In this document: positions 13,901 through 29,426 of the stretch, piece after piece
How the letters are laid out: each line of letters starts with the position of its first letter
How positions within the stretch are numbered: the first letter of the stretch is position 1
Source of the DNA: Hypomesus transpacificus
Taxonomy: Eukaryota > Chordata > Actinopteri > Osmeriformes > Osmeridae
Reading direction: 5' to 3'
Assembly (NCBI RefSeq): GCF_021917145.1
Contig: NC_061067.1
Coordinates: 8,133,950-8,197,949 of the forward strand
DNA: 64,000 nt
The notes under the pieces: model-generated
What the model was told of the DNA's origin: nothing
Databases searched by the model: none
The model's input: only the letters and a program-made list of their open reading frames with translations
Translations under genes and position numbers: made by a program

Positions 13901-16632
13901 TCATCACCAGCTGACATATCTACCAGCTTAAACAAAATGTCTTCAAGGTGTTTACCCTGTCGGACAACATTACTCCTATTTCATGAGTGAATTAATATCA
14001 ATAGATGATAATTTATTGATCAATAGATCAATAAACAGGTTTGACCAGTTTCGGGGGACCAATAAATACAACTTAAAAAATAAGTAAAAATCTAAATAAA
14101 AATTTAGATTGGAAAAAGTCTTCTCAGAAATGCATATGAATATTTTGAACTACTCGATTAGTAGTTCTCTCTCACACATACACTTATCATCTATCGTCGC
14201 TACCTGCCAACTGTCAAAGTGAAACAATTCTATTTTAAAAGGAGATTACTGTGTGTACTTGCAGCTGTTACCTATAGATTGTGTGACCTATCTCTCCTGT
14301 GTTTTGCTCCCCAGTGCTTATCTGCTACTCTCACACGCACAACGAGGCGCTGAAGAGGTCTCCTTTGTCCATTGTCACCGCCCTGGTCGACAAGATAGGT
14401 AGGACATCCAAAATGAAGGAAACCGCCCTTTTTTCTCATTCGGCGTGGGGGTTCATAGCGATGGACAATTAAAATCTTTATTGTTTGTGATGTCACAGAC
14501 ATGAGGAAGCACATCATCTACCCTGACTGTGACATTAAGTTAACTGGTCATGTGACGTGGGTGGGGAAAACCTCCATTGAAGCCAAGATGCACATGACTC
14601 AGGTATATACACTGACACGTCACATACGACTGGACACCTTGTCTTGTCATGGCTCTATGAACACCAGATATTTACAGTGAGGGATGTCAAAAGGTGATTT
14701 GAGGACTAGTGGCATAGTGAAAATAGCTCCATCTCAAGAACATTCTGTCAAATGACAATTCATCCCAAGCTCTGTGCATGCATGTACAACATAACCTGTT
14801 ACTTCTTACACCAAATAAGACATCCCCTATGTATCAATTGTTGAACATAATACGTTGTTTCTGTCATGCAAGAATACATTCCCCAAAATTCCCATGGAAT
14901 GTTTAGACAATTACATAGTTTTAAAATGAATTGGGTGCATGTACTCACACATCGGGTGCTCTAATACATTGTATAAAGATGTCTGTCTTTTTCTAGTATC
15001 ACGAGGGAGCCTACACTCCAGTTCTGGATGCTACGTTTGTCATGGTGGCCAGAGACCCAGAAAACAAGAGGTCGGTCGTCCCATCCATCCGCCCGTCCAT
15101 CTTCTCACCACCCATCCATCATCTCTCCATCCGTCTGTCGGTCTATCTATAATACACATCTCTCTTTCTTCCCCACCCTCCCCTTCTCCCAGGGCCGCGT
15201 TTGTAAACCCACTAAAACCAGAGGGTCCGGAAGAGGAGAAGCTCTTCCAAGAGGGAGAGAGTAAGATCATAGGTCTTAGCCGTGTAATAACATCCACTCA
15301 TCCCTGTGGTGCAGTGTGCGGGTGGTAACCCTCTCTCCCCTGTGTCTCCCAGTCAATAAGACCCGTCGTGTGCAGCTGAGCTCTGCCTCCCTGCTGAAGG
15401 TGGCTCCTACCGGCGAGGAGAGGAAGATCATCCACAGCTTGTTCCTCAACACGCTCGACACCAAGTACGACACGCCGCGCACGCGCTCAAATCTCTCACT
15501 GACACAGATTCGCACACAGTCGTGTGTGCGTGTGAGTGTGTGTGTGTGAGAGAGTTCCATGCATCGTCTGCGTGTCTGCTGTAGGACAGTGAGTTTCCGG
15601 GGCCGAGTCCTGCCTCCTAACTCTGTGTGGATGGAGGATGCCAAGGTGAAGGGACTGGAGATCTGCCACCCACAGGTGAGAGAAGACGGGAAAAGAGAGA
15701 AAGATAGTGAGGAGTGGGGGGGGGAGTAATAAGTCAGTTCATCTCTAGTTGTTGTTTGCGTTTGTGTTCATGGTATTCTGTGCTTGGTGTGTGTGTGATG
15801 TGACGTCCAGCCTGTGTGTGTCCTGTCCAGGAGAGGAACATCTTCAACCGGATCTTTGGAGGCTTCCTGATGAGGAAGGCCTATGAGCTGGGCTGGGCCA
15901 ACGCTTTTTCTTATTGGTGGGTTGGAATCCGTGTGTGTGTGTGTGTGTGCTTGGGTGGGTTTTTCAGCCCAGCGACCGCCCCTGATGTGTGCTTCCTACG
16001 TTTCATAGTGGGAGTCGACCGAGCCTGGTTGCTGTTGACGACATCCTGTTCCAAAAGCCTGTAGAGATAGGCTCTCTGTTGTTGCTGTCATCACAGGTGA
16101 GTGTTTGTGTGGATGCGTGTCGACTTTCCCTCGAGGGTCAATACATTAAATAAGTGATCTTGGAACTGTCAAAACAGACTGTATTGACAGTCCCTTCTAT
16201 CTTCAGGTGTGTTACACTGAGGGGAAGTACATCCAGGTCAGAGTTCACACGGAGGTGATGGACCCGCTGACCCGGCAGCACAACACCACCAACGTCTTCC
16301 ACTTCACCTTCCTCTCCGAGACGGACGTCCCCAACATCGTCCCCCAGAGCTACGGAGGTCAGTCCCTGCTCCTCTCACCCCCCCCCCCCTCACCCCCCCA
16401 CATGACCTTCTTCAGCCCTTTACACCTGCAGCGGTTGTCATTGCTACATCTGTAGATGATGTAGTCTATGTTGCAGGGTAGGTGAACTCCCACCACCCTG
16501 ATTTAGGTGTTACTCGATCCTTCTTCCTGTAAATGATCTACATGTCATGCTCCTGTAATGTTTGTGTCCACAGAGTCCATGCTGTACCTGGATGGGAAGA
16601 GACACTTCAACCAGACCGTGGAGTCCACATGA
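10932..16632 (+). CDS. acot9: Acyl-CoA thioesterase 9, mitochondrial
   Basis: Fifteen exons give 426 residues: 10932-10945, 11563-11657, 12589-12634, 13477-13647, 13741-13778, 14315-14398, 14499-14602, 14997-15070, 15193-15260, 15353-15464, 15585-15675, 15831-15916, 16009-16096, 16207-16357, 16574-16632. All phases close. ACOT9 hydrolyses acyl-CoA to free acid and CoA in mitochondria. The arginine-rich N-terminus (MLLPRLLLMRSAASVTRRAF) looks like a matrix targeting peptide. Two hotdog domains follow: one around 'SPLSIVTALVDKID' to 'GHVTWVGKTSIEAKM' and 'VLDATFVMVARDPENK', the second around 'NIFNRIFGGFLMRKAYEL' and 'NVFHFTFLSE'. It ends 'ESMLYLDGKRHFNQTVEST'. The first exon has only 14 coding bases and is inferred from phase and donor. 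The exon at 13477 uses a weak acceptor (GTGAAG). Confidence 0.95.
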
Positions 16633-17130
16633 GACCACAAGACACGTGATCGACCAACCCAACTGCCTGCCAAAGCCTTACAGTGTCCCACAAGCTCTGC
16701 TCAGCGTCCTCCGTGAGAGAAAATGATCCAGGTCATAGGTCAACTCTTGTATTTTGTTTTCATTCTTTGTACACCTGTTTATGCATGAACCTCACATAGC
16801 TGAGAACCATCCGGATCCTCATCCTCGTGTTTGTTTGTTTGGGCTTTAAAGACACATACCTCCCTTTGCCTTTTCCTTTTACTGTCTACAGTATATATTA
16901 CTACAGTATACTGTATATCATTTCTTCCACGTCTTAGCTTTATATGCACATATATTTAGCAGTTACCTGGACGTTTTGCGGTTACATTTTTTTAAATGCA
17001 CTTTTAAAGTATTTTTTTCTTACATTTTATATACTCATGCATCTGTATGTAAATGTTGATGGGGAGATACATTCTGAGGGATTTATTCATGCTATTATTG
17101 GTGAACTGCAATAAATAGTATTGTATTATT
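16633..17130 (+). other. acot9: acot9 3' untranslated region
   Basis: AT-rich sequence from the acot9 stop to AATAAA at 17110-17115, with further AATAAA-like hexamers just beyond. It converges on the prdx4 3' end about 120 bp away. Confidence 0.6.
17110..17115 (+). promoter_or_regulatory. poly(A) signal of acot9
   Basis: Canonical AATAAA about 480 bp past the acot9 stop codon. Confidence 0.55.
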
Positions 17131-17266
17131 TATCTTAGTATAAATAAATAGTTTAAATCAACAGTGTGTTTCATCACATTCATTGGACAGAATTCTCTCC
17201 ACACAAACCACTTGTATGTTTGCCATCTGATAAATAAACTAATTTGATGTTAACAGTGTTAACAGC

Positions 17267-17272
17267 TTTATT
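17267..17272 (-). promoter_or_regulatory. poly(A) signal of prdx4
   Basis: TTTATT on the plus strand, reading AATAAA on the minus strand, about 280 bp past the prdx4 stop. The interval 17250-17547 would be the prdx4 3' UTR. Confidence 0.5.
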
Positions 17273-17547
17273 TGAGAAATGAGTAACATCCATAGACAAG
17301 GAAAAGCAATACTGGAAATCACAGAACCATTGTGTGTAGTTTGATTAGCTCAATAGCTCCATCAGTCTCAAATGATCTGGCACTAATTGTAAAGATGCGG
17401 CATATGATAAGGTGAATAGAACATTCCTTTGGTTGTAAACAAATTCCAATGGAAATACTGCCACCTTGTGGTCTTTGGAGGTAGTGGCAGGAGATGGAAA
17501 TGAACCATGATGAGGAAGGGATTTACTGAACCATTTTAGTGCTTAAC

Positions 17548-19453
17548 TCACAGTTCCTGCTTGGGCCATCGGGCTCTCAAAGCTTCCTCAGGATTGATCT
17601 AGGTGTATGATAAATTAAACAATGTAATACACTGAGAAGAAAACTCAGACATACTAGAAGGTTATACATGCATCACTAGAATAATAATGTGACAACATAA
17701 GACTGAATAGATAATAACATAAGAATGAAAAACAATATAAATTCCATCAATGACTCACCGTGTCATCACCTGGTTTCCAGCCAGCGGGACACACTGTAAC
17801 AAGAAAGAGAAGAGAGACACATCCGTTTATAATGCGCTTACTCACCTGTCAGTGTATGTACTGCAGGGCCTGGATCTCTACCCACCTGCCCTGTGTCTGT
17901 CAGTGTGCTACAGGGCCTGGATCTCTACCCACCTGCCCTGTGTCTGTCAGTGTGCTACAGGGCCTGGATCTCTACCCACCTGCCCCGTGTCTGTCAGTGT
18001 GCTACAGGGCCTGGATCTCTACCCACCTGTTCCGTGTCTGTCAGTGTGCTGCAGGGCCTGGATCTCTACCCACTTGCCCCGTGTCTGTCAGTGTGCTACA
18101 GGGCCTGGATCTCTACCCACCTGCTCCGTGTCTGTCAGTGTGCTGCAGGGCCTGGATCTCCACCCACCTGCCCCGTGTCTGTCAGTGTGCTGCAGGGCCT
18201 GGATCTCTACCCACCTGCCCCGTGTCTGTCAGTGTGCTGCAGGGCCTGGATCTCTACCCACTTGCCCCGTGTCTGTCAGTGTGCTGCAGGGCCTGGATCT
18301 CTACCCACCTGCCCCGTGTCTGTCAGTGTGCTGCAGGGCCTGGACCAGGCGCAGGGTCTCGTCCACAGAGCGTCCGACTGGCAGGTCATTCAGGGTCACC
18401 TGCCTCAGGACCCCGCGGCCATCGATGATGAAGAGGCCCCTGAGAACGAATAGAGATGGACATTGATGCCAAACAGGCCTGTGTGTGTGGTGTGTGTATG
18501 TGTGGTATGTATGTAAGTGTGTGACTCTGACCTCAGTGAGTGTCCCAGGTCCTCCAGGTACACTCCGTAGTCCTTGGCGATCTGATGTGTGAGGTCAGAG
18601 AGGAGAGGGATGTTCATTGGTCCAAGACCGCCCTGTTTCCTGGACAAGTTTATCCTATTGGCAAGACACCCAATCCCACACAGTGGGTGGAGTTACAGTA
18701 TTATTTATCTTATATCATTTATCGTATTATTTATCAATGGTCAATAAAAGTTGATTGGTGAGAGAGGTCATACCAGGCCAGGTGTGAGAAGTGTGAGTCC
18801 ACAGAGCAAGCAACCACCTCGACTCCTATTTCCCTGAATTGCTGCACGCGCTCACTGAAGGCTTTCACCTCTGTGGGACAGACAAACGTGCTGTGCAACA
18901 CACAACAGATACATGATATTACTCATCTACATATGACACATTCATCACAAATGGATTTCACAGATGACATGTCTCAGACATTCATCCATGGTTTGCCGTT
19001 TGTTACAGCCAAAAGAGCATAGTTTGAGTGTTTCACTCACAAGTCTAGTGGGTAGAAGAGGAGGACGAGGTATCTCCCTTTGTAGTCAGACAAACGGAGC
19101 TGTTTGAACTCTCCGTTAATCACAGCTGTAGCCTCCCAGTCGGGAGCCCTCTTAGAGACTAGAGAGAGACACACACAGAGAGAGAGAGAGAGACACACAC
19201 ACACGCACAGTTTGAGACTACACCGATCGAGACACACAATCAATTATATTTTTGCATTATATTGAGATTTCCTGTGAGTGTGTAGACACCCGATAATCGA
19301 CGCACTCTTTGCCTTGCTCAGGTGGAGAGAAGAAGGGTGGCGAGGAGAGCAAAGGGCCCTCGGATTCCTGGATGCCTGGATTGTGGTCTTAAATTGCAGA
19401 AATACCAAATAAATCAGACACACACTAAAAAATGAATACCGCTGGGATGACAT
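17548..19453 (-). CDS. prdx4: Peroxiredoxin 4 (typical 2-Cys), atypical C-terminus
   Basis: Seven minus-strand exons give 240 residues: 19306-19453, 19041-19158, 18774-18890, 18532-18654, 18309-18439, 17759-17793, 17548-17598. PRDX4 reduces peroxides in the endoplasmic reticulum. The peroxidatic Cys sits in 'FTFVCPTE', the conserved Arg and GGLG loop in 'SRKQGGLGP', and the resolving Cys in 'HGAVCPAGW'. A hydrophobic N-terminus ([15 protein letters not shown]) suits a signal peptide. An in-frame ATG at 19531 would add 26 residues; I chose 19453 because it puts the hydrophobic core near the end. 'LHLSKAKI' before the thioredoxin fold identifies PRDX4 over PRDX1-3, and acot9 is the expected neighbour. 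Oddities: the usual N-terminal extension is shortened, the C-terminal YF motif is replaced, and the protein ends KQEL. The fifth exon's donor is part of a minisatellite. Confidence 0.87.
17864..18345 (-). repeat. 47-bp minisatellite made from a prdx4 exon end and donor
   Basis: About eleven copies of a 47-bp unit begin at 17864 and recur at exact 47-bp steps (17911, 17958, 18005 and so on to 18334), differing by a few bases. On the minus strand each unit holds the last 35 nt of prdx4 exon 5 followed by 12 nt of its intron, including the GTGGG donor. The exon-proximal copy at 18309-18343 is the real exon end. A shorter, diverged copy at 17846-17863 carries a GTGAGTAAG donor. As 47 is not a multiple of three, the array is open in all three plus frames, which are not genes. 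Confidence 0.97.
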
Positions 19454-19841
19454 ATCTAAAAATTTTCTTTGCGTCAGTCTAAACTCAGGAGAAAGCAGAA
19501 CTACCGAAAACCTACGCGTGCGTGACGCCAACAGCTGAGAAGTATCGATTTTTTCCCTTGGAAATATGACTCAATACACTATTCATTGCTTCCTTCCCTC
19601 ATCTCCTTTCCTCCATTGGTAAGGAAGAATAATATCTTAATCCCCTTAAATTGCCATTAAATGTTCATTGGCTGTCTGCAGTAGAAGAAAGACTATACTT
19701 ATATAGACTGTTTATAGGATTTATAATATGTTTGCCTAGTCTATCCTCTTTATATTTGTGACGTCACGGGCTCATAGTCGACAACTTCCGTGTTTTGCTA
19801 ATCCCGGTAGGTCGGAGTAGTGCTTTTGGTGTTCGATTAGC
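19454..19841. promoter_or_regulatory. Bidirectional promoter of prdx4 and pdha1
   Basis: The prdx4 and pdha1 start codons are head to head with 388 bp between them. The space holds a perfect palindromic CRE, TGACGTCA, at 19759-19766, and two inverted CCAAT boxes (ATTGG) at 19615-19619 and 19667-19671. No TATA box is placed convincingly. This is the layout of a shared housekeeping promoter; actual transcription starts are inferred, not seen. Confidence 0.65.

Positions 19842-24156
<4,315 letters not shown>

Positions 24157-25997: not shown

Positions 25998-29426
<3,429 letters not shown>

Follow-up and report, generated by a model that had tools for sequence, protein, structure and literature searches.

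The end of exon 5 of the prdx4 gene of Hypomesus transpacificus, together with its splice donor, is repeated in an array of 47-nt units that runs into intron 5. We consider it probable that this array is a mirage-type minisatellite, formed by duplication and expansion of the border, that the first donor is the one mostly used, and that the gene for the most part simply tolerates the array as a passenger. The window, by which we mean the whole stretch of 64,000 nt that was analysed, carries prdx4 on the minus strand and, beyond it, pdha1 and then rps6ka3 on the plus strand. The gene is laid out as follows.

19453-17548, minus strand: prdx4 coding region, 7 exons and 240 codons, internal stops absent
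19453-19306, 19158-19041, 18890-18774, 18654-18532, 18439-18309, 17793-17759 and 17598-17548, minus strand: prdx4 exons, with GT-AG borders and a continuous frame
18309..18439, minus strand: exon 5, whose final 35 nt (18343-18309) are the exon portion of unit 1
17794..18308, minus strand: intron 5, 515 nt, with the true donor CAG|GTGGGT at 18309/18308

The translation matches best a Peroxiredoxin chain, 3qpm (E 1.1e-103), followed by Peroxiredoxin-4 chains, and contains the AhpC-TSA and 1-cysPrx_C domains. Exons 5 and 6 are separated by one intron, placed by frame and homology, and the start of exon 1 and the whole of exon 7 are based more on frame and splice signals than on homology. The prdx4 and pdha1 genes lie head to head, with less than 2 kb from the predicted prdx4 ATG to the first located pdha1 exon (19453-21384). 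Vertebrate Prdx4 has a YF tail; the predicted last exon (17548-17598) is without one, its C-terminal end being the KDEL-like KQEL, and searching the three minus frames of 14000-17758 for [YF]F[DSN]K gave no other candidate for this exon.

A preliminary description of this DNA had reported that 35 nt from the end of exon 5 recur with 12 nt of intron at a 47-nt period, and TRF, anchor positions and self-match all agree with it. TRF found a single array at 17857-18344 (period 47, 10.4 copies, 95% matches, score 885), the CCAGGCCCTG anchor occurs 11 times at a spacing of exactly 47 nt, and the self-match over 17846-18344 is 0.95 at lag 47, compared with 0.17-0.36 at all remaining lags between 40 and 54. 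Against intron 5, the final 40 nt of exon 5 give an alignment score of 72, the best among 200 dinucleotide shuffles being 29; the repeat far exceeds chance. That a splice border has been captured by a minisatellite, as had also been proposed, is thus borne out by the sequence. The array consists of two parts.

17874..18343, minus strand: ten full 47-nt units, each 35 nt of exon 5 end plus 12 nt of intron, with 0-2 differences from unit 1
17846..17873, minus strand: a diverged eleventh copy of that exon end, with the donor GTGAGTAAG after it at 17845

The ten full units vary at six positions, of which five belong to the exon end and one to the intron segment, and any pair of them is 0-4 nt apart; the intron segment reads GTGGGTAGAGAT except in unit 4, where it is GTGGGTGGAGAT. 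Unit 1, including the coding end of the exon, is identical to unit 3. The earlier count of about eleven repeats at exact spacing holds for ten full units and for the 11 anchors 47 nt apart, but the eleventh copy is diverged: it has a net 7 nt fewer before its donor and reads CAG|GTGAGTAAG (17846/17845) where the others carry GTGGGTAG. Distance between units rose with their spacing in no clear gradient (Spearman 0.23, permutation p 0.078). A hand alignment of unit 11, with a TACA insertion and an 11-nt deletion, preserves CAG TAC ACT GAC, comparable to QYTD in the Prdx4 chains; since the aligner placed this stretch differently at a nearly equal score, an ancestral state with the Tyr codon stays a suggestion. 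Within the exon end taken up by the array, the protein is changed at 4 of the 11 positions that are invariant among three Prdx4 rows, compared with 25 of 158 such positions outside it (Fisher one-sided p 0.097), and equally many changes occur in 13 of 177 sliding windows of 11 residues, overlapping windows counted, so that the excess is not significant and is not claimed.

The arrangement is rare but not new: examples have been described in amphioxus and human genes, and prdx4 is a further case. In the mirages of amphioxus globin and Adh3 genes, the units at the edge are described as lying outside homogenisation and RT-PCR as showing undisturbed splicing (PMC3087553), and PMC3902484 reports the same architecture in the PGBD5 and troponin C genes of lancelets. 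The prdx4 array shares four of four testable anatomical features with the amphioxus mirages (Adh3, BflGb6, BflGb9): tandem units straddle the exon–intron boundary (35 nt of exon and 12 nt of intron, ten units), an authentic border stands at one end with the gene kept open (unit 1 is continuous with exon 5, and 240 codons are open), many units carry splice signals, and the edge unit is not homogenised (unit 11 is diverged, units 1-10 being 0-4 nt apart). It differs in gene and in chordate lineage, and whereas acceptor borders are also involved in amphioxus, the window yielded donor borders only. Allelic length variation and RT-PCR are known for the amphioxus mirages, whereas the prdx4 array is known from one sequence.

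In human IFI6 (6-16, G1P3), a minisatellite is reported to supply several splice donors (PMC4526556, citing Turri 1995). The likeness to prdx4 lies in a multi-donor minisatellite; in IFI6 the units reportedly act as donors in splicing and yield three mRNAs (PMC4526556), whereas in prdx4 any decoy would add a stop and the candidate donors are known from sequence. Human variable internal tandem repeats are likewise minisatellites at exon–intron boundaries and able to alter splicing, but are described from segmentally duplicated primate genes, where variable repeats are retained or spliced out, with a mean unit of 30 bp and 4 repeats (PMC2812944). The strong prdx4 units, as in intron gain by AGGT duplication (PMC4974935), are tandem duplicates with AG|GT; in contrast to that process, no new intron is evident in prdx4, all copies lying within one intron. 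For prdx4 together with a minisatellite, the literature match concerned diabetes and obesity gene data.

The history that we infer would have begun with a tandem duplication of the exon 5/intron 5 border, followed by growth to ten 47-nt units via unequal exchange or slippage. The copy attached to the upstream exon would have remained coding, and its donor would be the one used; the outermost copy at the other end would have drifted, and those in between would remain in the intron as latent donors. The ten exactly spaced units and the diverged edge copy support such a mirage-type origin. In most transcripts the first donor would be chosen and the decoys rarely used; that the array is probably a passenger is proposed because the amphioxus mirages are reported to leave splicing undisturbed (PMC3087553). 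The 240 open codons and the matches to Prdx4 imply that the first donor serves at least sometimes, for the full-length product.

What use of a decoy would do can be read from the reading frames. Read-through of unit 1 gives GCA GGT GGG TAG, exactly as had been described, and use of any decoy would put this in-frame TAG into the mRNA, so that according to the frames an intact protein comes from the first donor only.

18301..18303, minus strand: in-frame TAG, met in transcripts that use any donor after unit 1

The TAG would lie from 74 nt (unit 2) up to 450 nt (unit 10) upstream of the exon 6/7 junction, and the usual rule for nonsense-mediated decay is 50-55 nt upstream of a junction. Since these distances exceed it, transcripts spliced at a decoy and carrying the unit-1 TAG would be expected to undergo nonsense-mediated decay, a further ground for reading the array mainly as a passenger. 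Any decoy product that survived would, judging from the frame, end after HGAGG and be without exon 6 and its VCP cysteine, which we take to be the resolving cysteine.

The strength of the donors was compared across 23 donors of three genes (prdx4, pdha1 and rps6ka3) by a U1 duplex score that is crude, enhancers and modified U1 bases being ignored. The rps6ka3 exon 1 donor (-12.7) was excluded because its intron contains a 100-N gap; one rps6ka3 donor among the 23 scores -7.1. This gap (26185-26284) falls at the expected site of rps6ka3 residues 21-329, the true gap being probably much larger, and a 23-nt repeat at +58 nt adjoins it (26294). The true donor of prdx4 intron 5, at -13.0 kcal/mol, has the lowest energy of the 23 and so is the strongest, the runner-up reaching -11.9. 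The preliminary description had counted some ten decoy donors: ten further GT sites do exist, but they are unequal. GT is present in all ten full units and CAG|GT in 8/10; the decoys of units 3, 5, 7, 8, 9 and 10 score -13.0 and that of unit 4 -12.5, so that seven decoys differ from the true donor by at most 0.5 kcal/mol, whereas those of units 2 and 6 are weakened (CAA|GTGGGT, -6.5). Intron 5 would shorten from 515 nt with the true donor to 92 nt with unit 10 and 52 nt with unit 11. The unit 11 donor, at -13.8, is stronger than the true one; we judge it unlikely to be a usable decoy, since only a 52-nt intron would remain, which minimum intron size makes unlikely.

A rival reading, which develops the copy-number effect on expression proposed in the preliminary description, is that splicing turns to the decoys at a rate that has consequences: the number of units would determine what fraction of prdx4 mRNA bears the TAG and is decayed, and would thereby tune expression. 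It seems to us unlikely, yet of the alternatives it is the one that survives best. The seven near-equal decoys, which have the same 35 nt of exon adjoining them as the true donor, count in its favour and against a passenger role, as does the reported use of downstream repeat units as donors in IFI6 (PMC4526556); the still stronger pairing of unit 11 and the early stop in every decoy product also count in its favour. Predicted local RNA structure likewise offers unit 1 no preference: the modelled accessibility probability of the donors ranges from 2.6e-6 to 1.7e-3, with 3.9e-5 for unit 1, and does not explain why the first would be chosen. Against tuning stands the report that amphioxus mirages do not perturb splicing (PMC3087553, PMC3902484).

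A second case was found in the neighbouring pdha1 gene, in three copies of an exon end.

22381..22422, plus strand: copy 1 (authentic), followed by the weak donor AGG|GTCTCT, U1 -3.5
22476..22517, plus strand: copy 2, 42 nt identical, 95 nt downstream
22646..22690, plus strand: copy 3, diverged, with the stronger donor AGG|GTGAGA, U1 -9.0

Against its own intron this exon gives an alignment score of 80, compared with 26 in 200 shuffles, and an in-frame TAG in copy 3 (22660-22662) halts read-through. Common to pdha1 and prdx4 is a diverged last copy with a stronger donor. Among the 23 introns of the three genes, the end of the upstream exon is clearly held by two and a copy of the start of the next exon by none; two more exon ends are borderline (p 0.05 and 0.055) and, given 46 tests, are not claimed. 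Tandem arrays scoring at least 40 in TRF begin no more than 15 nt from the donor in 6/23 introns; in 2/23 they end at most 15 nt from the acceptor. This donor-side bias is a lead only, since the pyrimidine tract constrains the acceptor side and the three genes were a non-random choice. We find it doubtful that donor borders of this genome are hot spots of tandem duplication at which the exon end co-evolves with its copies, with the result that turnover introduces changes such as Tyr to His into Prdx4. Two arrays in rps6ka3 may be recorded here: a 15-bp minisatellite of 14 copies (28427-28638) starts 4 nt into the intron after the exon ending at 28423, and (GTCT)n with about 52 copies (28031-28237) starts 5 nt into the intron after the exon ending at 28026.

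An artefact of assembly or sequencing, the true prdx4 locus having one or few units, is improbable. The assembly is imperfect here, as the 100-N gap in the window and the failure to find rps6ka3 residues 21-329 (human protein numbering) between 26057 and 26366 show, and the BflGb6 mirage of amphioxus is reported to have been misassembled in the draft genome (PMC3087553). However, the gap lies about 7.8 kb from the array, and six variable positions with a diverged edge copy are not what simple stutter gives; the exact copy number, coming from one assembled sequence, is provisional. Stepwise removal of the intron, each CAG|GTGGGT acting as both acceptor and donor so that splicing ratchets along without residue, is very improbable: splicing from unit to unit would regenerate the donor in the 8/10 units that carry this motif, and a branch-like CTGAC is seen by eye upstream of the AG in the units (the motif scan spanned the last 110 nt), but the units are without the polypyrimidine tract that the authentic acceptor has.

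The probable mirage-type passenger in prdx4, along with the second case in its neighbour, adds a teleost to a phenomenon for which amphioxus offers the best descriptions. Where near-identical donors stand in a row and one alone keeps the frame, choice among equal 5′ splice sites is put to a natural test, and if alleles vary in copy number, the cost of the decoys would be directly measurable.
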